The translations under genes and the position numbers were made by a program. The notes under the pieces were generated by a model. That model made no database searches. It saw nothing but the letters and a program-made list of their open reading frames with translations, and was not told where the DNA came from. A DNA stretch of 64,000 nucleotides from Seongchinamella unica (lineage in GTDB: Bacteria > Pseudomonadota > Gammaproteobacteria > Pseudomonadales > Halieaceae). The stretch is from positions 124,001 to 188,000 of the forward strand of contig NZ_SMSE01000002.1 in NCBI RefSeq assembly GCF_004354085.1. The letters are read 5' to 3'. Of this stretch, positions 7,529 to 21,448 are shown piece after piece (within the stretch, counting starts at the first letter, position 1; each line of letters opens with the position of its first letter).

Positions 7529-10500
7529 ATGACGTCGGATAATCCGGTTCTCCAATCCGTTTCGCTGGCGGACAAGTATGACAAGAGCGAAGGACGGGTC
7601 TTTATCAGTGGTACCCAGGCGCTGGCGCGGCTGGCGCTGGTCCAGCGTGAAATCGATACCAGGGCGGGCCTGAATACCCGGGGATTCATTAGCGGTTACC
7701 GGGGTTCCCCACTGGGTACCCTGGACAGTGTGCTCTGGCGCGAGCACAAACGGCTGGACGCGGCTGGCGTCGTGTTTCAGCCCGGGGTGAATGAGGATTT
7801 GGCCGCCACAGCCGTATGGGGAAGCCAGCAACTGGATTTTTTCCCGGACCCGCAGGTCGATGGCGTATACGCGCTCTGGTACGGCAAGGCGCCCGGTGTT
7901 GACCGGTCCGCCGATGCGATACGTCACGGCAATAACTTCGGTACGCACAAGCACGGCGGTGTGCTCGTGGTAGTTGGCGACGACCACCCCGGCAAATCCT
8001 CCACGGTCGTCAACCAGAGCGAACCGATGTTCGCCGCCATGCAGATACCGGTATTGTATCCGTCAGACGTGCAGGAAATCATCGACTTCGGTCTGCTGGG
8101 TTGGCAATTGTCTCGCTACTGCGGGCTCTGGGTGGGGCTGAAGACCGTCAACGAAACCGTAGAGCAGACCCAGACGGTGACAGTGCATAGCGACGAATTT
8201 AGCGCCGTTTGGCCCGACCGCGGACTGGACGCCGATAACGTCAACATCAAGTCCGCTTTCAACCCCCAGGCGTTGGAAGTGACGGTCAAGCGGGTGCGAC
8301 TGCCGCTGGTCAATGCGTTTGTCCGGGCCAACGGCATCGACAAGGAACGGATTGGCGGCAAGGGCGGTCTCGGCATCGTAACGTCCGGCAAGAGCTACTC
8401 CGACGTGATTCAGGCGTTCAGTCTGCTGGGTCTCGACAGCGACGCTGCTGCGGCCCTCGGCATCGCCATTTACAAGGTCGGCTGCATATGGCCCCTGGAG
8501 CCGGAGGGTATGAAAGAATTTGCCCAGGGGCGTCCCGAGTTGCTCTTTGTGGAAGAGAAATCGCCGATGCTGGAGCCCCAGGTGGCTCAGCTGTTGATCA
8601 ATGCTGAGCAGAAACCCCGTCTGGTGGGTAAGCAGGATGAGCATGGCTCAGCGCTGCTGCCTTCCGACGTGCAACTGGAGCCCACCGTGATCGCCGACGT
8701 GATTTTCGCCAGACTCGACGCCCTGGCTGTGGCCGACCCTGCTCTGCGCGACAGGCACGCGGCGCTGATGGCGGAGATGAACGCCAACCGGGAGCGATTC
8801 ACTGCCACGGCGTTGAAGGTGATACGTACGCCTTATTTCTGTTCAGGTTGTCCGCACAACACGTCGACACGGCTGCCGGAGGGCAGTATGGCGATGGCCG
8901 GCATCGGCTGTCACGGCATGGCGGGGCTGCGACGGGCCGACACGTTGGTACCCACGCACATGGGTGGCGAAGGCGTCAACTGGACGGGGGTGGCACCCTT
9001 CAGTGGTACCGAGCATATGTTCCAGAATATCGGCGACGGTACTTACTTCCACTCCGGGTTGATGGCAATTCGGGCTGCCGTGGCATCCGGCGCCAATATC
9101 ACCTACAAGATACTGTTCAACGATGCGGTTGCCATGACCGGCGGACAGCCCATCGACGGTCCCATATCAGTAGCGACCATGGCGAGCCAGGTGCTGGCGG
9201 AGGGGGTCCGCAAGGTTGTGGTGGTATCCGACCAGCCGGAAAAATTTCGCGGTCAGTTACCCCGCAATGTCGCCCTTTACCCGCGCGAGGAGCTCGATCT
9301 CGTGCAGCGGGAACTGCGCGAGGTAAAGGGCACGACGGCACTGATTTACGAGCAGACCTGTGCCGCCGAGAAGCGTCGCAGGCGCAAGCGCGGTACCTTT
9401 CCGAACCCGGCCAAGCGAATGTTCATTAACGATGCGGTGTGCGAAGGCTGCGGCGACTGTTCGGAACAGTCCACCTGTGTATCGATCCAGCCCAGGGAAA
9501 CGCCTTTTGGAACCAAGCGCCAGGTGGATCAGTCCAGCTGCAACAAGGACTACAGCTGCGCCAAGGGCTTTTGCCCGTCATTCGTCACCGTGCTGGGATC
9601 GGAGCCAAGGAAGCCCAGCGGTGTCGCGCTGGAGGGTGACTTGTTTGCGGATTTACCGATGCCTGCGCGGGCCGAACTGACGCGGGGCAATGTGGGCATT
9701 ATGATCGCGGGTATCGGCGGAACCGGCGTCATCACGGTTGGCGCGGTGATCGGTATGGCGGCGCATCTCGAGGGCAATGCCTGTTCCATCTACGATATGA
9801 CCGGCCTCAGCCAGAAGAATGGCGCGGTGTATTCACACCTGCGGATCGCGGAGCGGCAGGAAGACCTCGCCGCGCAGCGTATCGGCGCTGGTGAGGCTGA
9901 TGTGGTACTCGGCTTCGATCTGCTGGCGGCGCTGTCCGGTGACGCGGGCACCACCTACGCCCTGGGTCGTACGCGTGTCGTCGGCAACTCGAAAATCGTT
10001 CCGACCATTGATTTCCAGTTTAACCGCGACATGACGATCAACGAATACCAGGTGGAAGCCGATATCGCCACCCGCGCCGGGACGGACAATACCTATTTTG
10101 TCGATGCCACCGACCTGGCCCTGAAGCTGCTGGGCGATACCATCGGCGCCAATATGTTTCTGGTGGGCTATGCTGCGCAGCTTGGGCTGTTGCCGGTCAC
10201 TGTGCAGGCACTCGAGGAGGCCATACGGCTCAACGGCACGGCAATTCCTTTCAACCTGCAGGCCTTCGCGCTGGGTCGACTGTACGCTCACTCGCCAGAC
10301 GCGGTTACCGCACTGCTGCCTGAACAGGCCGAAACGGTGCACGAGGAAACACTGGAAGAGCTCATCGCTTCCCGGGCACAGCACCTGGTCGATTACCAGA
10401 ACCAGGCCTGGTCGCAGCGATTCCTGGCCACGGTGGATCGGGTGCGCGCCGCGGAAACCGCCATCGATGCGGATTCGACGGCCCTTACCCGGGCCGTTGC

Positions 10501-11984: not shown

Positions 11985-12914
11985 GTGTCCGCTACACTCC
12001 CAGAGCTGCGCAGCCCGTTGATCCTCGATGGCGGCCTCGCCACCGAACTGGAAGCGCGGGGCTATGACCTGAATCATCCACTGTGGTCGGCCAAGCTGCT
12101 GATTGAAGCACCCGATGCCATCAGGGACGTGCACCTGGCCTACCTGCGGGCCGGTGCCGGCTGCATCATCAGCGCCAGTTACCAGGCGAGTGTCGACGGT
12201 TTTATCTCGCTGGGGCTATCGGAGGAGGAGGCACTATCGCTGCTGGATCTCTCGATAAAGCTGGGGCGAGAAGCGATCAACCAGTATCGCCACGAGGCGT
12301 CGCCGCTGGTGCACCCACTGTTGGCGGCCAGTGTCGGCCCCTATGGCGCCTGCCTGGCAGACGGCTCCGAGTATCATGGGAACTATGACCTGGACCAGGC
12401 GGGGCTTTACCGCTTTCATCGCCAGCGTTTGCTGCGACTTGCCGCTGGCGGTGCTGACTTGCTTGCCTGTGAAACCATCCCCTGTATCGACGAAGCCCTG
12501 GCTCTCGGCCAGCTGGTTGCCGAGACGGAGACCCCCGCCTGGATCAGTTTTTCCTGCCGGGATGGGGAGCTCCTCAGCAGCGGTGAATCCATCGAGAAGG
12601 CGGCCAGGGCGCTGGCCGGTCATTCGTCGTTATTGGCTTTGGGCGTTAATTGCACCGCGCCCGGCCACATCACCTCACTCATTGACCGGCTTCGCCACTG
12701 CTGGAGCGGGCGCATCGTGGTTTACCCCAACTCCGGCGAGCGCTACTGCGCCGACACCGGCAATTGGGAGGGAACCCGCAGCCCACTGGAATTCGCCGAT
12801 GCCGCCGGGACCTGGTTGCAGCGCGGCGCCGATATTGTCGGTGGCTGCTGTCGTACCGGACCGGGGCACGTCGCCGCGCTGCGGCGGGCCCTGGAACTGC
12901 CGGGCCGCGCTTAA
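11985..12914 (+). CDS. mmuM: Homocysteine S-methyltransferase
   Basis: 309 residues, GTG start immediately after the TGA of the previous gene. The Hcy-binding TIM barrel is complete: LILDGGLATELEARG at about 10-24, ACETIPC near 163, GVNCTAP near 218 (first zinc Cys), and the double-Cys VGGCCRTGPGH near 288. It transfers a methyl group from a donor such as S-methylmethionine or SAM to homocysteine, making methionine. Cytoplasmic. Its TAA shares the palindrome TTAA with the stop codon of the convergent kinase gene. Confidence 0.92.
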   Translation: MSATLPELRSPLILDGGLATELEARGYDLNHPLWSAKLLIEAPDAIRDVHLAYLRAGAGCIISASYQASVDGFISLGLSEEEALSLLDLSIKLGREAINQYRHEASPLVHPLLAASVGPYGACLADGSEYHGNYDLDQAGLYRFHRQRLLRLAAGGADLLACETIPCIDEALALGQLVAETETPAWISFSCRDGELLSSGESIEKAARALAGHSSLLALGVNCTAPGHITSLIDRLRHCWSGRIVVYPNSGERYCADTGNWEGTRSPLEFADAAGTWLQRGADIVGGCCRTGPGHVAALRRALELPGRA

Positions 12915-14119
12915 TCCTCCCGGGTGATGGTATAGCCCAGGGCCAGCATCGCCTTGATGGTGCCCAGTACGGTGGCCCGGTCATACTCCTTTTCTGATTC
13001 GGGGAGCTGGTTGTAGGCGACCAGGCAGGGGTGGGTTTTCCGGCTGTCGTCACGCACGTCACCCAGCTTCCAGCCGTCCTTGTAGCGTTGCAGTGCCCAG
13101 ATATCGTGCGTGTGCTCTGCCAGCTTCTCGATCAGTGGTTCCAGTGACTCATCCACTTGCACTGAACCGACGTCGATAGGCCGGGGTTCGTAGCCAAAGT
13201 AGTCGTCGAGGTCCCGGGCCAGGTCCAGGGCGGTGGTGTAGCGTCGGCTGGGGTCCCGGGCAATGGCTTTCAGGCAGATGCTCTCCAGCTCCCGCGGGAT
13301 ACTGTCATCAATCTGTCGCGGCGGGCGCACTTCGCCGCTGCCGATCGCGGCGACCAGTTGCTCTCTCGTGTCACCCTGAAACGGCAATTGTCCACACATC
13401 AACTGGTACAACAACACGCCCAGGGCGTAGATGTCGGTGCGTCCGTCCAGAGACTGGGTGTTGGTATCTGCCTGTTCCGGGCTCATATACGCGGGCGTGG
13501 CCGCGTGGCCGGCCAGCTCCGATCGCTGCTGCGGGTTATAGGCGATGCCGAAGTCGGTCACGTGAGCCTTGCCGTTGTCGTCGATGATCACGTTGGCCGG
13601 CTTGATATCGCAGTGAACGATGCCGGCCAGATGTGCATGGTGCAGTGCCAGCGCGGCGTCGCGAATGGTACGCACCGTTTCCGGCAGGCTGATCCGTCCC
13701 TGTCGCAGCAGCCAGCCCAGGTCCTGCCCGCGGATAAACTTGGAAACGATATAGCAGGAGCCCTCGGGGGTGCGAATGCAGTCATAGACCGGAACGATGT
13801 GCTCATGGTCCAGTTGGGCAACGGTGCGGGCCTCGGCAATGAAGGATTCGACGCTGTCGTAGCGGGAGAGCACCTGCTGGCGCGGTTTCTTTACCGCAAC
13901 CAGCCGGTCCAGTTCGAGATCGTAGGCCAGAAAGACATAGCCGAACGTGCCCTGGCCCAGGTAGCGCTTGACCTCGAAGCGCCCCAGAACGACTTCGCCC
14001 GGTTGCTGGGGCAGTGACTCCCCGGCTGGAAAATCGGCAGCCACCGGCGCATCGGATAACGGACTGAGCTCGGTGTTGTCCATCGTTTCGGTGAGATTAA
14101 ACGGTCCTTCGTTCATCAT
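12911..14119 (-). CDS. Ser/Thr protein kinase with C-terminal RyR domain
   Basis: 402 residues. Kinase landmarks: glycine loop LGQGTFGYVF (54-63), VAVKK with the ATP-binding Lys near 77, catalytic loop HCDIKPANV (169-177), DFG at 189-191 and TPAYMSPEQ near 208. The HRD motif is HCD, so this is a non-RD kinase. The kinase domain ends near 310. Residues about 329-397 match the RyR repeat of ryanodine receptors (AEHTHDIWALQRYKDGW, then KTHPCLVAYNQLPESEK, then MLALGY). There is no membrane segment, so it is cytoplasmic. In bacteria RyR modules are thought to bind nucleotide-like ligands, so a ligand-gated kinase is possible (inference). It converges on mmuM and diverges from surE. Confidence 0.92.
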   Translation of the reverse strand: MMNEGPFNLTETMDNTELSPLSDAPVAADFPAGESLPQQPGEVVLGRFEVKRYLGQGTFGYVFLAYDLELDRLVAVKKPRQQVLSRYDSVESFIAEARTVAQLDHEHIVPVYDCIRTPEGSCYIVSKFIRGQDLGWLLRQGRISLPETVRTIRDAALALHHAHLAGIVHCDIKPANVIIDDNGKAHVTDFGIAYNPQQRSELAGHAATPAYMSPEQADTNTQSLDGRTDIYALGVLLYQLMCGQLPFQGDTREQLVAAIGSGEVRPPRQIDDSIPRELESICLKAIARDPSRRYTTALDLARDLDDYFGYEPRPIDVGSVQVDESLEPLIEKLAEHTHDIWALQRYKDGWKLGDVRDDSRKTHPCLVAYNQLPESEKEYDRATVLGTIKAMLALGYTITRED

Positions 14120-14397: not shown

Positions 14398-15324
14398 GTG
14401 AACTTGAAATCGATGCTTTTCGGGGCCGGTATGCTCGCCGCTTCAGCCTCAGCCTCCGCCCTGAATATCGCCCTGACCAATGACGATGGCTGGTCGACCC
14501 CGGGTATCCAGGCCCTTTACGAGGCGCTGACCGATGCCGGCCATACGGTGGTGCTGGCGGCTCCCCTCGATGGCCAGAGTGGCAGTGGCACCGCGTTCAA
14601 CATCAGCGGCCTGGAGATCACCCGCCAGGCTGAACAACAGTACTCCGTGGCCCTGGAGGGCGGGACAGAGGGCGCCGAACCGGCCACCTCGGGCGCTATC
14701 GGCCTCACCATCCTCGAGCAGTTGACGGGTCAAACCCCGGACCTGTTGGTGTCGGGTATCAACGACGGGGCCAATCTCTCTGCCGCCACTTATACGTCAG
14801 GAACAGTGGGTGCCGCGCTCCACGCCGCAGGGCTGGTGATTGGGGGTGAGTCTATAACCGCCATCGCCATCAGCACTGACGAGCGCTGCGCGGAAGATGC
14901 CGCCATGACCGACGAGTGCCGGGAAGTGGCCCAGTTCCTGGTCGATTACATCGATCACCTGGAACAGCGTCCGGCCTTCCAGCGCGGTGCCTCCACCCTG
15001 ATTCCCAACGGACGCGCGCTCAACATCAATTTCCCCCCGGTAGAGCCGCTGGGCGTTAGAATCGCGACCCAGGGCAAGCTTCCCCTGCTGGCGGGGTCCC
15101 TGCGCAGTATCGAACTGGGCTGCGGGGGCTGTACCGAGCTGGAGATCGGTGAATCTGCTGACGGTGGAATCAGCGGCACCACGTCCTTCGAGGGTGGCGA
15201 CGACGTCAGGAATGCCGACCAGGCCCTGTTTGCCGAGGGCTATATCACTGTGGTGGTGATCCAGCCTAACCTGAGCGCCAGGGCGCAAGGCCTCAAGGGC
15301 TATCTGCGCCAGTATCGCTACTGA
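14398..15324 (+). CDS. surE: Exported SurE-type 5'/3'-nucleotidase
   Basis: 308 residues from GTG, with CGGAG 8 bases upstream. Residues 1-21 (LKSMLFGAGMLAASASASA) form a signal peptide, unlike the cytoplasmic SurE of most bacteria. The metal-binding LTNDDGW begins at about residue 25, followed by PLDGQSGSGTAFNI (phosphate-site Ser) and VSGINDGANLS near 115, which replace the canonical RSG and SGINHGAN. The family hydrolyses nucleoside monophosphates and polyphosphate. A periplasmic location would suit phosphate or nucleoside scavenging. The 3' end overlaps the convergent AraC gene by 32 bases. Family certain, gene symbol by homology only. Confidence 0.85.
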   Translation: MNLKSMLFGAGMLAASASASALNIALTNDDGWSTPGIQALYEALTDAGHTVVLAAPLDGQSGSGTAFNISGLEITRQAEQQYSVALEGGTEGAEPATSGAIGLTILEQLTGQTPDLLVSGINDGANLSAATYTSGTVGAALHAAGLVIGGESITAIAISTDERCAEDAAMTDECREVAQFLVDYIDHLEQRPAFQRGASTLIPNGRALNINFPPVEPLGVRIATQGKLPLLAGSLRSIELGCGGCTELEIGESADGGISGTTSFEGGDDVRNADQALFAEGYITVVVIQPNLSARAQGLKGYLRQYRY

Positions 15325-16444
15325 GTTCTGCCTGTTCCGCCTGACGCCTGAATTCTGTAGGCGTCAGGCCCGTCACTTTCCTGAACTGGCGATAAAACGC
15401 CGACTGGGAATTGAATCCGGATTCCTGGGCGATGTCTGCCATGCTGCCGGAACTGGACAGCAGGAGCTCCTTGGCGCGCTTTACCCTGAAGCTGCTCACG
15501 TAGTCGAAGAAGTTTTTCCCGGAACAGCGGTTGATGACCTGACTTAGCTCGGGGGCGGGCAGGCGGAGATCTTCCGCCAGGTCTGCAATTCTCAATTCGT
15601 GCTGCAGATAGGGCTTTTGCCTCACCATGTAGGCCTCCAGTTGCTGCCAGCGTGCCTGTTTGTCGGCGCTGTCATCTTCGCTGGAAGCGGTCGCGGTGTC
15701 TTTCCGGCTGCCTGCCCCCTCCCGGTGCCCGGCAAAGACATCGGGCTGGGCGAGGCCGAAGAAAGCGATCAGGTAATACAGCGCGATCACGGTAAGTGAT
15801 GAATAAATGCTGCGCGGCCACAATTCCATGCCGGGCAACAGCCGAATCAGCGCAACCAGCAGACCGGTAAGTGCCATCAGCAGGCACAGGGCAACCAGCA
15901 GCTTCAGCCAGCGCAGGGTGACCGACTCCTCGAATGAAAATTCGTCTGCCAGCCGTTGACCGTAAGCCAGCACCTTCGCCAGGCTGGCGGTGAGATAAAT
16001 GACCGAGACGGCATAGACAAACAGGCCAGTCAGGGCCAGCGGGCCGGGGGGCCAGCCACTGCGGGCCTGTTCCAGGCCGTTGCTGCTCAGGTCGGCGCCG
16101 TTAGCGGACACCAGGGGGAGGGCGATGATGGGTAGCAGCGGCCACAGGTGCAGCAGGTGTACCGGCCGCAGGTGAAAATCTGCCTGTGTCATCACGCTGA
16201 CATAGCCGTACAGCAGCGGGCTGCTGAGTACATAGGCGAAACCGAGCAGCGATAACCCGGGCATTTGCTGCAGCAAACCGGTATGGAGTGCCAGAATCAG
16301 CACCAGGTAACACAGATTGCAGGCCAGCGCAGCGGCCAGCAGGCTGTTTGCCTGCCGGTTGCCATCCTTACGCAATAATAATCCGGCCATCACAATAAGG
16401 CCCAGCAGTATGCCGGTGCCCGCCACAAATTCACTGACGCCCAT
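15293..16444 (-). CDS. AraC-family regulator with N-terminal membrane domain
   Basis: 383 residues. The first 230 or so residues hold about seven hydrophobic helices (for example FVAGTGILLGLIVMAGLLL and LLYGYVSVMT), and the C-terminal 100 are an AraC-type double helix-turn-helix (LRIADLAEDLRLPAPELSQV, then DIAQESGFNSQSAFYRQF, then VTGLTPTEFRR). It is a membrane-anchored one-component regulator of the type found in Bacteroidetes and marine gammaproteobacteria. It lies 36 bases downstream of the SDR/BVMO operon on the same strand, so it may be the operon's last gene and regulator. The gene end overlaps surE by 32 bases. Confidence 0.88.
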   Translation of the reverse strand: MGVSEFVAGTGILLGLIVMAGLLLRKDGNRQANSLLAAALACNLCYLVLILALHTGLLQQMPGLSLLGFAYVLSSPLLYGYVSVMTQADFHLRPVHLLHLWPLLPIIALPLVSANGADLSSNGLEQARSGWPPGPLALTGLFVYAVSVIYLTASLAKVLAYGQRLADEFSFEESVTLRWLKLLVALCLLMALTGLLVALIRLLPGMELWPRSIYSSLTVIALYYLIAFFGLAQPDVFAGHREGAGSRKDTATASSEDDSADKQARWQQLEAYMVRQKPYLQHELRIADLAEDLRLPAPELSQVINRCSGKNFFDYVSSFRVKRAKELLLSSSGSMADIAQESGFNSQSAFYRQFRKVTGLTPTEFRRQAEQAELSSDTGADSP

Positions 16445-16480
16445 TCAGTTACCGATAGAGTGTGTCAATATCGGTCCAGT

Positions 16481-17263
16481 TTAAACCAGTCCCAGCAGTT
16501 CCACGATGCCATGGCTGTGTCCGGCGGTGTAACCACCGTCTACCACCAGGGTCTGGCCGGTCATGTAGGAGGCATCATCGGAAGCCAGGAACAGGGCGGC
16601 GCCGGCGATCTCCTCGGGCTTGCCAAAGCGCCCGAGTTTGATCTGTTTGCCGATATCCGCCCTGAAGTCGGGCATGGACGCCATCACGTCTTCTAACAGC
16701 GGGGTTTCAATAAACCCGGGACAAATGGCATTGCAGCGAATGCCGAGGCGGCCATAGTCTATGGCGACATTCTTGCTCAGTAACACCACGCCGCCCTTGG
16801 AGGCGTTGTAGGCGCTGCCGCCTTCTGTGCCATTGATGCCTTCGACACTGGCCACGGTGATGATACTGCCGCTGCGCTGGCTCATCATCTGCTCGATCAC
16901 AGCCTTGATGGCGAGGAAGGTGCCCTTGAGGTTGATGTCGACCACCCGGTCCCAGACGGCCTCGTCGACCATATTGACCGGGCCGCCATCACCCACGCCG
17001 GCGGCAGTGATCAGGATATCGATGGCGCCGAATCGATCTGCTGTGTCATCCGCAATTCGCTTGAGTGCCGCGCCGTCAGTCACATCCACCTGGTGCAGCG
17101 CGCTGCCGCGATTGCCTGCCACCTGCCGGTGCCAGTCCGCAGCCGGCTGCAGATCTACACCAATCACCGTGGCGCCCTCGTCGGCGTAGCGCCTTGCACA
17201 GGCCAGGCCAATGCCGGAAGCGGCGCCGGTGATCAGGGCGATGCGGTTTTCCAGTCTGCTCAT
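16481..17263 (-). CDS. SDR family oxidoreductase
   Basis: 260 residues with GAGGAG 6 bases before ATG. Classical SDR: TGAASGIG at 12-19 for NAD(P) binding, NNAG equivalent ITAAGVGD near 87, catalytic Ser in VASVEG, and YNASK (Tyr and Lys) near 153. The ending VDGGYTAGH is typical. Last enzyme of a minus-strand operon: nine bases separate it from the monooxygenase gene. It probably oxidises an alcohol to the ketone used by the monooxygenase, or the reverse (inference). Confidence 0.9.
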   Translation of the reverse strand: MSRLENRIALITGAASGIGLACARRYADEGATVIGVDLQPAADWHRQVAGNRGSALHQVDVTDGAALKRIADDTADRFGAIDILITAAGVGDGGPVNMVDEAVWDRVVDINLKGTFLAIKAVIEQMMSQRSGSIITVASVEGINGTEGGSAYNASKGGVVLLSKNVAIDYGRLGIRCNAICPGFIETPLLEDVMASMPDFRADIGKQIKLGRFGKPEEIAGAALFLASDDASYMTGQTLVVDGGYTAGHSHGIVELLGLV

Positions 17264-17272
17264 GGTGTCTCC

Positions 17273-19201
17273 TCAGCTGAGTCGGTAGTCGCTGGCCTCC
17301 ACCTGCTTGGTCCAGCGCCACATGTCGATGATTTTCCACGGCCATAACAGGGTAACCTTGCCCTGCGCGTTCTGGTAAAAGCTGTGTACACGGGGGTGCT
17401 CCCAGATCAGCCTGGCGTGCTGCTCCCGGAATCGTTGTTGGTAGGCGGCGAGGGTCTCATCCCGGCACTCCAGTGTTTTCTCGCCCGACTGCAGTAGCAA
17501 CTTGAGACACTCCATGGTGTAACGCACCTGGCATTCGCCGTTGAACACCAGACTGCCGCCGAAGGCGAGATTGGTGCCGGGGCCAAACATGCAGTAGAAA
17601 TTGGGAAATCCCGGTATCGTAATTCCCAGGTAGGCGGCCGGTTCGGTGGCCCAGGTCGTGGACAGTAATCGACCTTCGCGGCCGCGGATTTCCATCGGCC
17701 ATAGAAAGCGGTCGGTTCGGAAGCCGGTTGCATAGATGATAACGTCGGCTGCAACCTCGCTGCCATCGTCGGCGATGACACCGCTGGCCGTCACTGCCGT
17801 GATGCCCTGGGTCTGCAGGTCCACATTGTCCCTTTTCAGTGCCCCCAGCCAGCTGCCGTTGTCCTGCAGCGTCCGCCGTCCCATGGGCGGGTAATCTGGT
17901 ATCACTTTCTGCAGCAGGTCGGGGTCATCACCCACCTGGCCACGGATATAGTCACTGAACATCTGGTAGACGAAGTCATTCATTTCGTTGACCGAGCGCT
18001 CCTGGTGGGGCCAGTCGGGGTCGACGATAATGGTTTCGTAGGCGCCGTCGCAGGCGCACCAGAACAGCAGGAAGCGAAACCAGCGGGTGTAAAAGGGGAG
18101 GTGCTGCAGACACCACTTTTTGCCGGCGGGGACTTCCTCGTGGTAAACCGGGTTTTCGAACATCCACGGCGGGGTCCGCTGGAAAACGGTCAGCTGAGCG
18201 GTTTCGGCGGCGATCGCTGGCACGATCTGAAACGCGCTGGCACCGGCACCCACCACGACCACTCGCTTGCCGTGACAGTCGATGGATTCGTCCCAGTCAG
18301 CAGAGTGGCACCACTGGCCCTGGAAGGAATCAACTCCGGGAATATCGGGCAACCTGGGGCGGTTCAGCTGACCGACAGCGCTGATGACCGAGTTGACCTC
18401 GTGGCACTCTTCGGCGCCGGCGCCGTCACGAGTGGTGACCCGCCAAAGGCCGCTTTGCTCATCATAGCTTGCACGGGTGACTTCCGTGTTCAGGCGTATG
18501 TTGTCGAGCAACTGGTAATTGGTCGCTACATCTTCGAAGTATTTCTGCAGTTCCGGCTGTTGCGCAAAATACTGGGACCAATGGTGCGCCGGTTCAAAGG
18601 AATAACTGTAGAGGTGGTTGCTGACGTCGACCCGGGCGCCGGGGTAGCGGTTTTCAAACCAGGTGCCTCCCACGGAGGCATTTTTCTCGATCAACACATA
18701 GGGAATGCCGGCCTCCTGCAGCCGTATTGCCGCCAGCAACCCGGACATGCCGCCGCCAATAATGAGCACTTCGTGGGCCTCGCGGCGGGCCACCGGCACC
18801 TCGGGCCCCCAGGCGTCGGTTCGCTGGTCGACCCCGTCCAGTTCCATTTCCTCCAGCATCATCGGCAAATACTCCGGCGGCACTTCCTGCGCTACCAGGA
18901 AGTTCATCATCCTGTGAATCGTGGCTGTGTCCGGCTGGGCTGGCAGCTGGCAACCGCCATCGCGAAATTTGCAGATCACCTCCAATGCTTGTGCGCGGAT
19001 GGCGGCCTTATCCTGCTCGGACATATAGCCCTGGTATTCGTTGATATACGCTCCGCCGGGGCGTATGTCGCCATCCAGCAGGCTGGCGTCGCCGCTCATG
19101 TGTATCATGCTCATCATCAGCGTGGGAATACTGGCGTCGGCCAGCGCCGCTTCAATGAGTTGGTCATCCCTGGGGATATGAAAATGTGGTTGCTCAGTCA
19201 C
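17273..19201 (-). CDS. Flavin-containing Baeyer-Villiger type monooxygenase
   Basis: 642 residues from GTG, with CAGGAGT just upstream. The first 135 residues are a helical extension of the type seen in 4-hydroxyacetophenone monooxygenase. FAD-binding GGGMSGLLAAIRLQ is at about 150, the Baeyer-Villiger signature FQGQWCHSADW near 295, and the NADPH-binding VVVGAGASAFQI near 315. It should insert oxygen next to a ketone to give an ester or lactone, using NADPH and O2. Cytoplasmic. Between two SDR genes in a tight operon; with the acyl-CoA-dehydrogenase-like protein this makes a cyclic ketone or aromatic ketone pathway plausible. Confidence 0.92.
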   Translation of the reverse strand: MTEQPHFHIPRDDQLIEAALADASIPTLMMSMIHMSGDASLLDGDIRPGGAYINEYQGYMSEQDKAAIRAQALEVICKFRDGGCQLPAQPDTATIHRMMNFLVAQEVPPEYLPMMLEEMELDGVDQRTDAWGPEVPVARREAHEVLIIGGGMSGLLAAIRLQEAGIPYVLIEKNASVGGTWFENRYPGARVDVSNHLYSYSFEPAHHWSQYFAQQPELQKYFEDVATNYQLLDNIRLNTEVTRASYDEQSGLWRVTTRDGAGAEECHEVNSVISAVGQLNRPRLPDIPGVDSFQGQWCHSADWDESIDCHGKRVVVVGAGASAFQIVPAIAAETAQLTVFQRTPPWMFENPVYHEEVPAGKKWCLQHLPFYTRWFRFLLFWCACDGAYETIIVDPDWPHQERSVNEMNDFVYQMFSDYIRGQVGDDPDLLQKVIPDYPPMGRRTLQDNGSWLGALKRDNVDLQTQGITAVTASGVIADDGSEVAADVIIYATGFRTDRFLWPMEIRGREGRLLSTTWATEPAAYLGITIPGFPNFYCMFGPGTNLAFGGSLVFNGECQVRYTMECLKLLLQSGEKTLECRDETLAAYQQRFREQHARLIWEHPRVHSFYQNAQGKVTLLWPWKIIDMWRWTKQVEASDYRLS

Positions 19202-19220
19202 AGTGGACTCCTGCCCGGAT

Positions 19221-20069
19221 TTACAGAGGAGGTGCGAAAGTCGGGTTACGCCCTTCGCGGATATCGTCGAGCCTCAGGTTGGCGGACTCACGCCAGGCCT
19301 CCTCCGAGAGAATGTAAAACTGCTCGTTGCGAATCGCCTGCAACACGCGCTGGGCCATGATTTCCGGCCCAAGACCCCCGGCGACCGAAGCGGCCAGACT
19401 TTCCATTACCAGGTCACGGGCATCGGAGCTGACGACATCGCCGGCATCACTGTAGCGCCGGGGTCGATTGCGCTCTGCCCGGGCGATGCCCGTATTGATG
19501 GCTTCCGGACAAAGGACCGACAGCTTGACCTGTGGTGAGTGAAATGCCAGCTCGTGGTAGAGGGATTCGCTCAGCGCCAGCACGGCGTGTTTACTCATGT
19601 GGTAAATACCGGAGTAGGGCATGGCGGTGAGCGCCGCCATCGATGCAGTGTTGACCATGTGGCACTCACAGTTCTGGGCCTGCATGACAGGCAGGAAGCT
19701 GCGGATACCGTGGATAACGCCCCAGAGATTGACGTCCAGCACCCAGCGATAATCTGCCAGGCTTTCTTCCCATAGCAGTCCGCCGGTGAATACCCCGGCA
19801 TTGTTGCAGGCCACGTGAATCGCACCGAATTGGGCAACGGCCCTGTCAGCCAGGGCCTGCACTGCCTCGGCCTCGGCTACATCAGTGACCACGCCAATGC
19901 AGTTTGCGCCCTGTTGCTGCAAGCGGGTAACCGCCTGTTGCAGCGGCTGCGCCTCGATATCCGCCAGCACGATGTTCATCCCCTCGGCGGCAAAGGCTTC
20001 GCCCATGGCCAGGCCGATACCGCTGGCGCCGCCGGTGATAACCGCTGTTTTCCCCGGGAAATCCTGCAT
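19221..20069 (-). CDS. SDR family oxidoreductase
   Basis: 282 residues with GAGGAG before ATG. TGGASGIG at 12-19, CNNAGVF near 87-93, and YHMSK with catalytic Tyr and Lys near 157. It has a long C-terminal extension relative to classical SDRs (about 35 residues, ending NPTFAPPL). Gap to the flanking operon genes is 12 and 19 bases. Distinct from the SDR at 16481, so two different dehydrogenation steps are likely in the pathway. Confidence 0.9.
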   Translation of the reverse strand: MQDFPGKTAVITGGASGIGLAMGEAFAAEGMNIVLADIEAQPLQQAVTRLQQQGANCIGVVTDVAEAEAVQALADRAVAQFGAIHVACNNAGVFTGGLLWEESLADYRWVLDVNLWGVIHGIRSFLPVMQAQNCECHMVNTASMAALTAMPYSGIYHMSKHAVLALSESLYHELAFHSPQVKLSVLCPEAINTGIARAERNRPRRYSDAGDVVSSDARDLVMESLAASVAGGLGPEIMAQRVLQAIRNEQFYILSEEAWRESANLRLDDIREGRNPTFAPPL

Positions 20070-20081
20070 AAGTCAGTCTCC

Positions 20082-21257
20082 TCAGAGCGCCATGCTGTCA
20101 TCGACAAGGCCCAGCATCAGCTTGCCTGCCTCGGTGTAAATCTTTTCGCTGATAAATGCATGCTGGGTACCGGTATACATGTCCCTGAATGAGCGCTCCA
20201 GGCGGTTGCCCTCACGAATGGCGGCAGTGCCGGCGGCGAGGTGAGCCCACTGCACGGCTTCCCTGCAGGCCTCTGTCGCATAGGTGGCAGCCAGACGCAT
20301 ATCCGCCCGCATTTGCGGCGTAAGTTCGGCCCCCCCTGCGACTGCCGATTCACACTCGGTAAACGTGTCCACCATCAGTCGATGGGCCGCCCGCCACAGA
20401 CCCTCGTGGTGGGCGAGGTCGCGCTGGAAGGTCGGCTTGTGCGCGATAGAACTTTCCTCGCCCATGCGGACTTTCTCCCTGGCCAGGATAACCACCTCGT
20501 CGATGGCACCGCGGGCCACACCCAGCGCCCAGGCCCCGTGTCCGCAGGCGGTAAGTGGCATGAGTCCGAAGCGGTAGGTGATACCACCACGGCGCGGTTC
20601 CCGGGTAAACAGGGGGTATACCCGGTGCAGCGGTACAAAGACCTCTTCCAGTTCGTAGTTGTAGCTGCCTGTACCCTTGAGTCCCTGCACGTGCCAGCCG
20701 TCGGTAAACCTGACCTCCTCACGGGGGACGACGGCTACCAGCATCTTCGGCATGCCGTCTTCATCCAACTGCATGTCCTCGCCTGCCATTGGCAGGAAGC
20801 CGGCGCATACATATTGGGAATGCCCGGTTCCGCTGCCGAACTGCCAGGCCCCGGAGAGCCGGTAGCCGCCTTCGACCACAGAGCCTGTGCCATTGGGAAA
20901 GAACTGACCACCCATGGTCACCCGGTTGTCGTTGCGGCTGAACACCTCCTCAAAGCCCTCGTCGGGCAAGTAAGCGGCGGCAAAACAGGCGGAGGGCAGG
21001 TTGGCAATGCCTATCCAGCCAAGGGAGCCATCCTGCCTGGCCATTTCCATCCAGGTGGCGATCAACTCTTCAAAACCAGGCTCGCGCCCGCCTGCGGCTT
21101 TGGGGTTCATGAATTGCATCAGGCCGCTTTGCCAGAGCGCGTCAACCAGCGGCTGGCTCAGGGTCCGGCCCTGCTCGGAGGGGGTCGCCTCTCGCAGTGC
21201 AATGGTCTCGATGCTGCGGGCCATCATGGGTCCGCTGCCCTGGGTCATGTCGTTCAT
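20082..21257 (-). CDS. Acyl-CoA-dehydrogenase-like flavoprotein monooxygenase
   Basis: 391 residues from ATG 21257, chosen because GGAG lies 7 bases upstream; a start 8 codons earlier has no such site. The fold matches the acyl-CoA dehydrogenase superfamily, especially the PF08028 group containing two-component monooxygenase oxygenases (HsaA-type): DGSLGWIGIANLPSA near 75, WQFGSGTGHSQYVCAGF near 140, and a C-terminal helical bundle. The catalytic Glu of true dehydrogenases was not evident. First gene of the operon. A flavin reductase partner is not present in the window. Confidence 0.82.
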   Translation of the reverse strand: MNDMTQGSGPMMARSIETIALREATPSEQGRTLSQPLVDALWQSGLMQFMNPKAAGGREPGFEELIATWMEMARQDGSLGWIGIANLPSACFAAAYLPDEGFEEVFSRNDNRVTMGGQFFPNGTGSVVEGGYRLSGAWQFGSGTGHSQYVCAGFLPMAGEDMQLDEDGMPKMLVAVVPREEVRFTDGWHVQGLKGTGSYNYELEEVFVPLHRVYPLFTREPRRGGITYRFGLMPLTACGHGAWALGVARGAIDEVVILAREKVRMGEESSIAHKPTFQRDLAHHEGLWRAAHRLMVDTFTECESAVAGGAELTPQMRADMRLAATYATEACREAVQWAHLAAGTAAIREGNRLERSFRDMYTGTQHAFISEKIYTEAGKLMLGLVDDSMAL

Positions 21258-21448
21258 TATTGTTCTCCGGCGCCGGTACAAGCTGACACAGTATGCGCCT
21301 GTTACGGCGATTCCGAATCGGTGGCAGCCACTTGGCCAGGTTAAGCGGGTACAGGTTTAAGAATTTGAGCCAGGCCTTTGCCCCGAGACAAGGTTTTGCC
21401 GGTGGTGGCATACTGCTCTCTCCTGAGCCGATAATCGACGGAACCGGT

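Follow-up and report, generated by a model that had tools for sequence, protein, structure and literature searches.

What might a ryanodine-receptor (RyR) domain, a small repeat first known from the calcium channels of muscle, be doing at the end of a bacterial serine/threonine kinase? The question is raised by one gene in a 64,000-nucleotide stretch of the genome of the marine bacterium Seongchinamella unica (assembly GCF_004354085.1, contig NZ_SMSE01000002.1, positions 124,001 to 188,000 of the forward strand; this whole stretch is called the window below). A preliminary description, generated by a model from the letters and a list of open reading frames (ORFs), had read the gene as a kinase carrying an RyR domain and had suggested that a small, nucleotide-type ligand might control it. 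Our analysis confirms both domains (PF00069 and PF02026) and indicates, from the sequence, a soluble PknB-like serine/threonine kinase with a C-terminal RyR domain (table 1). In our judgement there is about an even chance that the RyR domain of this protein senses an ADP-ribose-type nucleotide, the likeliest candidates being 2'- or 3'-cyclic ADP-ribose (2'cADPR or 3'cADPR) made by a TIR protein, or ADP-ribose (ADPR).

The kinase domain scores 157.4 bits with the Pfam Pkinase model (cut-off 31.7), and the catalytic residues Lys77, Glu96, Asp171, Lys173, Asn176 and the DFG motif (residues 189–191) are all in place. Cys170 precedes the catalytic aspartate, giving HCD for HRD, so that the protein falls outside the RD class and is a non-RD kinase by definition, as had been proposed. 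The nearest NCBIfam model, the PASTA kinase NF033483, gives 244.7 bits where 450 are required and matches the kinase part only, and no long hydrophobic stretch was seen by eye in the protein. The modelled kinase part matches PknA, PknI and PknB with Z scores of 5.9–8.2 and mostly high root mean square deviations (rmsd), the best match being 4ow8 (Z 8.2, rmsd 7.8, 169 residues aligned); because these fold matches are of low Z and high rmsd, the assignment rests on the Pfam sequence score.

The RyR domain gives 112.9 bits with PF02026 against a cut-off of 27.4, with all 91 profile positions covered, and a chance match was rejected on this score. The domain does lie where the preliminary description had put it (residues 329–397), but that span was slightly short, as the Pfam match begins directly after the kinase. 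A PDB sequence search with the last 75 residues found the Bacteroides "putative ryanodine receptor" 3nrt (E 2.4e-23), ryanodine receptors (about 1e-45, with as many as four matching stretches apiece) and a Bacteroides/human chimera (3e-48). An AlphaFold2 model, made from an alignment of 18 rows of which three cover the kinase region, has ten-residue means of 84–93 for the predicted local distance difference test (pLDDT) over residues 321–400. In VIA-align comparisons, which were limited to structures on the Foldseek lists, the modelled RyR part matches the Bacteroides thetaiotaomicron RyR protein (BtRyR, 6uag) with Z 13.5 and rmsd 4.4 over 96 residues and RyR2 (6mm6) with Z 9.4 and rmsd 1.7 over 93. 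Both outcomes that had been named as fatal to the assignment, a profile score below threshold and a predicted structure without the RyR fold, are thus contradicted. The full-length model has a mean pLDDT of 50.4, a predicted template modelling score (pTM) of 0.29 and a poor kinase part, and the domain arrangement that it shows was rejected as unreliable.

A scan of the genome collection with two patterns gave 414 confirmed RyR relatives, and the best 80 of these were used for the study of loci (numbers beginning with L are our locus numbers). The domain lies in an ORF of fewer than 200 residues, mostly about 95–110, in 68 of these 80. Of the genomes sampled, PF02026 is present in 4 of 369 from the class and 15 of 140 from the family (the source genome counted in both). 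Samples from two other phyla, each centred on a genome chosen for having RyR, give 20 of 392 and 15 of 396; by tblastn the domain was found in 217 of 50,697 phage records and 9 of 72,556 plasmid records. By these counts RyR domains in bacteria are sparse rather than truly rare, which qualifies the rarity that had been claimed for them. Among the loci examined, kinase and RyR share one frame only in the source genome, Seongchinamella sediminis and HTCC2148, the proteins being 87.0% (S. sediminis) and, over the whole length, 63.6% (HTCC2148) identical to that of the window. These three genes, with repeats, account for all eight shared frames found in a set of 223 RyR-bearing frames from 194 of 238 loci (the best 80 of the 414 scan matches plus fetched loci of the genome samples; the 217 phage and 9 plasmid matches lie outside this set). 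A widespread kinase–RyR fusion was therefore rejected for the sampled loci, although further examples may lie beyond them. A viral scan with the kinase found 11 loci that have kinases, and in none of these does RyR share the frame.

What the domain could bind is suggested by phage relatives. In the parts of a 2026 preprint used here (PMC13232231), 2'/3'cADPR is reported as a ligand or substrate of phage proteins with PF02026; the cleaving protein, RyDEP, has the ligand residues H75, W78, H100 and D117, of which H75 and D117 are the catalytic pair, and stable complexes with the signal were obtained for six of the eight other phage homologues tested. When RyDEP (gp78 of mycobacteriophage DyoEdafos) was aligned to a profile of bacterial RyR domains, the match had E 1e-12 over its residues 72–117 with no gaps, and all four ligand residues fell on identical residues of the window protein (table 1). 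Across 93 RyR domains (that of the window and those of 92 loci) the positions of H338 and D380 never vary, that of W341 is kept in 92, and that of H363 is histidine in 68, threonine in 23 and asparagine in two; because the scan patterns include part of the motif, these figures are biased upward. The catalytic pair of RyDEP is thus present, as H338/D380, and this would suit an enzyme that cleaves the signal, with the fused kinase an off-switch or reset factor; however, according to the same parts of the preprint none of the eight other homologues cleaved the signal despite high sequence conservation, so the pair is not diagnostic of cleavage, and we consider such a glycosidase improbable. The four residues are also retained in all three kinase–RyR orthologues, the most distant of which is the HTCC2148 protein, and this argues against a domain that has lost its ligand and serves merely for dimerisation or docking. 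RyDEP is a homodimer (PMC13232231, same parts), open and closed dimers of BtRyR are named in PDB titles, and a single RyR repeat on a kinase would pair kinases. These points favour such a module; we regard it as rather unlikely, if less so than the glycosidase.

The genes that accompany RyR elsewhere point in the direction of a signal. We compared 78 loci (the 80 less the kinase loci L014 and L015; the 12 viral RyR loci, L094–L105, do not enter these counts), setting ORFs within 300 bp of RyR against those more than 4 kb away. An iterated TIR profile matches 20 of 150 near ORFs and 8 of 303 far ones (Fisher 2.9e-5); at intermediate distances it matches 4 of 71 and 12 of 213. Pfam TIR_2 was confirmed in 19 of the 20 near ORFs, and with 19 the Fisher value is 6.3e-5 (this control covered the 20 near ORFs, the eight far ones being counted by profile); the remaining near ORF is most likely that at 8288–12100 of L076, in which Pfam finds RHS repeats only. 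A TIR-profile ORF lies within 300 bp in 18 of the 78 loci and anywhere in the flank in 30. Among close neighbours on the same strand, 83 of 95 were scanned by Pfam (12 were left out for size), giving TIR_2 in 13, TIR in 8, ThsB_TIR in 3 and SLATT_1 in 2, where the TIR models may overlap.

A second partner is seen in HTCC2148, where a gene of 569 codons is convergent with the kinase–RyR gene with 23 bp between them. No Pfam model reached its cut-off on this protein, and PADLOC gave one weak match, to a "4TM" effector (4e-4). In its model (mean pLDDT 69.4, pTM 0.71) the N-terminal domain resembles YpsA (Z 14.2, rmsd 2.9, 158 residues aligned) and then DprA and LOG proteins, and for this reason the domain is taken as SLOG; the remainder is helical in the model and looks membrane-bound. 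In the passages of a 2022 survey used here (PMC9503650), YpsA-like SLOG domains include cADPR sensors, and the ThsA SLOG domain recognises a variant cADPR. A first, non-iterated search with the SLOG-membrane protein matched six proteins, all within 300 bp of RyR, and the profile (SLOG or membrane part) matches 11 of 150 near ORFs and 1 of 303 far ones; in L023, L047 and L057 the membrane part matches proteins whose genes adjoin a stand-alone RyR gene. In the loci fetched, then, stand-alone bacterial RyR genes are unusually often beside TIR and YpsA-like SLOG-membrane genes, both of which belong to NAD/ADP-ribose signalling. A profile seeded with TrkA_N (TrkA/RCK-type) also favoured near ORFs (31 of 150 against 6 of 303), but the class is only partly of that type, Pfam TrkA_N being found in 4 of the 83 scanned neighbours and in neither of two members checked. 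This profile grew to 102 of 796 ORFs and had thus drifted, so that we do not rely on it; the TrkA-type link is weakened and was never needed for the argument, and the TIR link withstands the Pfam control.

Kinases are linked to RyR by a second, independent route, to judge from the sequences of three loci. In L067 (a Clostridia bacterium), L076 and L093 (Flavonifractor) a large protein of 1337–1392 residues is encoded upstream of a stand-alone RyR gene and ends within 3 bp of it, and a PP2C phosphatase gene precedes the large one (table 1). A kinase region is found in the large protein of all three by a kinase profile built here, and by Pfam with 71.2 bits in L067, 31.6 bits against a cut-off of 31.7 in L093 and no match in L076; a match to a Card1-like nuclease above the cut-off occurs in L076 only.

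Within the genus, the SLOG-membrane gene is present in three of eight genomes, exactly those with kinase–RyR; across the family it is present in 5 of 140 genomes, four of them with RyR (hypergeometric 4e-4, not corrected for kinship). It does not adjoin the kinase gene in the source genome or in S. sediminis. TIR genes (PF13676) number three in the source genome, two in S. sediminis and one in HTCC2148, and the other five genus genomes have one in a single genome; by eye, the six TIR proteins of the kinase–RyR genomes have a glutamate at what we take to be its usual place. A one-gene tree of seven of the eight genus genomes (G002, in which the gene is in two pieces, is left out) puts G003, which has neither kinase–RyR nor the SLOG-membrane gene, nearer to the source genome than G007, one of the other two kinase–RyR genomes, but with support of only 0.57; simple vertical inheritance may or may not be the whole cause of the co-occurrence with the SLOG-membrane gene.

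Because phage PF02026 proteins bind 2'/3'cADPR, the residues concerned are conserved and TIR and SLOG-type genes are over-represented next to stand-alone RyR genes, a nucleotide-type ligand for the kinase–RyR protein appears better supported than it was from the window sequence alone. From here on we infer the ligand, the pairing, the direction of control, the substrates and any role in defence. A TIR NADase would make the signal under stress or phage attack, and the signal would bind in the RyR pocket formed by H338, W341, H363 and D380. The RyR domains might then pair, or switch their pairing, and so bring two kinase domains together or release them, after which the kinase would phosphorylate itself and further targets; the SLOG-membrane protein encoded in the same genomes may respond in parallel to signals of this class. 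The dimers of RyDEP and BtRyR mentioned above make pairing through RyR plausible. Pairing activates kinases of the PknB type. A more ambitious version, which we put forward tentatively as possible but doubtful, is that many bacteria use RyR domains as their own receptors for variant cADPR signals, alongside TIR and SLOG partners, and that in Seongchinamella and HTCC2148 one such domain became a phosphorylation switch; this would be the first serine/threonine kinase gated directly by TIR-made cADPR.

Several observations weigh against a kinase set by an ADP-ribose-type signal. There is no TIR-profile ORF within 300 bp in 60 of the 78 RyR loci and none in the fetched flank in 48 (many flanks end at contig ends), and the loci are not phylogenetically independent. 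In the same parts of PMC13232231, two of the eight other phage homologues gave no stable 2'/3'cADPR complex, so membership of PF02026 does not guarantee cADPR binding. Few lineages underlie the co-occurrence in the genus (3 of 3 genomes against 0 of 5; Fisher 0.018 without correction for kinship), and one family genome with the SLOG-membrane gene (G027) has no RyR. The full-length model says nothing of how the kinase and RyR domains are arranged. In the source genome, moreover, the SLOG-membrane and TIR genes are sited away from the window gene, which is surrounded by metabolic genes; the window is on contig C3, and the TIR matches, from a genome-wide search made with PF13676 alone (PF08937 and SIR2 being outside it), are on C1, C4 and C5. 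Such surroundings would suit a kinase that is a metabolic or energy sensor outside any TIR pathway, with an RyR domain that binds a widely available adenine nucleotide (ATP, AMP, NAD+, or ADPR of whatever origin). The parts of the RyDEP preprint used here (PMC13232231) set the RyDEP structure against that of human RyR3 R12 in complex with AMP-PCP and dantrolene (PDB 9L90). On the other hand, the enrichment of TIR and SLOG-type genes beside stand-alone RyR genes and, in those parts, the nanomolar binding of cADPR isomers by two phage relatives speak against it, and we think such a sensor unlikely, although somewhat less so than a bare dimerisation module.

A homocysteine S-methyltransferase gene is convergent on the 3' end of the kinase–RyR gene (ending at 12914, an overlap of four bases), and a SurE gene is divergent from its 5' end; Pfam identifies the three neighbours scanned as S-methyltransferase, SurE and AraC-type, Thoeris ThsA or ThsB was not found among them, and an operon is not evident. 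A conserved operon was rejected: S. sediminis shares the S-methyltransferase side, and in HTCC2148 the sole match of a 19-kb stretch to the window proteins compared (4–24 kb) is kinase–RyR itself. About 7 kb of the window (14398–21281), encoding SurE and AraC-type proteins by Pfam and a short-chain dehydrogenase/reductase and a flavin monooxygenase by eye, separates the kinase gene from the gene at 21293, and these two genes are adjacent in S. sediminis. A scan of promoters and terminators gave little above shuffled sequences. The N-terminal tail of the protein is otherwise variable among the three orthologues, yet T10 and T12 are constant, and they could be a phosphorylation or docking site.

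Table 1. Coordinates of the kinase–RyR gene, its parts and the phosphatase–kinase–RyR cassettes of other loci (window positions unless a locus is named).
Feature	Coordinates	Strand	Basis or remark
Kinase–RyR gene	12911..14119	minus	ATG start, 402 residues
Serine/threonine kinase domain, residues 48–296	13232..13978	minus	Pfam PF00069, E 6.1e-46
HCD motif, residues 169–171, non-RD catalytic loop	13607..13615	minus	invariant across the three orthologues
RyR domain, residues 310–400	12920..13192	minus	PF02026, E 8.6e-33, and fold match to BtRyR
His338, equivalent of RyDEP H75	13106..13108	minus	gapless hidden Markov model (HMM) alignment of RyDEP gp78; residue roles from the parts of PMC13232231 used here
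Trp341, equivalent of RyDEP W78	13097..13099	minus	gapless HMM alignment
His363, equivalent of RyDEP H100	13031..13033	minus	gapless HMM alignment
Asp380, equivalent of RyDEP D117	12980..12982	minus	gapless HMM alignment
N-terminal tail, residues 1–40	14000..14119	minus	low model confidence; T10 and T12 conserved in the three orthologues
PP2C / kinase-region protein / RyR cassette, L067	3254-8279		
PP2C / kinase-region protein / RyR cassette, L076	3251-8282		
PP2C / kinase-region protein / RyR cassette, L093	3011-8279		

RyR domains were also seen in other company. Seven proteins (in L016, L036, L052, L064, L074, L083 and L090) have RyR at or near the N-terminus, followed by TPR-S and the same YpsA-like SLOG-type domain as in the SLOG-membrane protein, and five of the seven carry a class III nucleotide cyclase; they come from several phyla and look like nucleotide-signalling devices in a single protein. 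There are fusions of RyR with Abi_2 (L068, 4460-5620) and with a PrsW protease (L080, 138-1196), and relatives of the source genome have TrkA_N–RyR proteins in open frames of about 620–660 residues (by Pfam in L004, L005 and L009, by eye in L007 and L008), that of L004 having, by eye, the same H/W/H/D spacing. One TIR protein of the source genome (L126, 4215-7337) has TIR, a cyclase-type match, NB-ARC and TPR in a chain of 1040 residues, a layout that resembles plant immune receptors.

If the kinase–RyR protein is indeed a receptor for a TIR-made nucleotide, it would add a phosphorylation branch to bacterial immune signalling by NAD derivatives, and the host would have a receptor for signals that phages are already known to counter with RyDEPs. 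The old question of what the RyR repeats of animal calcium channels sense would also become testable in a protein of 402 residues. On the more ambitious version given above, the phage RyDEPs would be captured host receptors, with a hint that a nucleotide immune receptor was the ancestor of the RyR repeats in animal channels. Within the titles and abstract openings covered by a literature search, there was no kinase–RyR fusion and no host RyR–TIR neighbourhood, and the words "ryanodine" and "RyR" are absent from the searched passages of a 2005 survey of prokaryotic serine/threonine kinase architectures (PMC1262709) and of the 2022 survey of viral NAD/ADPR systems (PMC9503650).

The kinase–RyR protein can be set beside six known systems. 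With RyDEP and the phage PF02026 sponges, as described in the parts of PMC13232231 used here, it shares the family and the four gaplessly aligned ligand residues; those proteins remove or sequester the signal, whereas here RyR is on a host kinase and is presumably its receptor. The B. thetaiotaomicron RyR protein (3nrt, 6uag) has the same fold and 46–50% identity over the RyR domain but lacks a kinase. The RyR repeats of the animal ryanodine receptors (Repeat12, phosphorylation domain) are homologous, but several of them lie in a channel of thousands of residues, where here there is a single one on a small kinase. Kinases of the PknB type have the kinase domain and catalytic residues in common with the window protein, which differs in scoring below the PASTA cut-off, in HCD for HRD and in the additional RyR domain. 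PD-T4-6 is a phage-defence kinase; its model is the top PADLOC match of the kinase part (1.1e-69), and the resemblance is restricted to the kinase domain (residues 41–308). With Thoeris (ThsB TIR and ThsA SIR2-SLOG, in the passages of PMC9503650 used here) the proposed logic is common, in that an effector would carry a small fused domain with which it senses an ADPR derivative made by TIR, but the window system has a kinase as output, RyR rather than SLOG as sensor and no TIR or SIR2 gene directly adjacent. The bacterial sensor kinase is already known as a kind, and within the literature searched it is the RyR sensor and the probable signal that are new for it.

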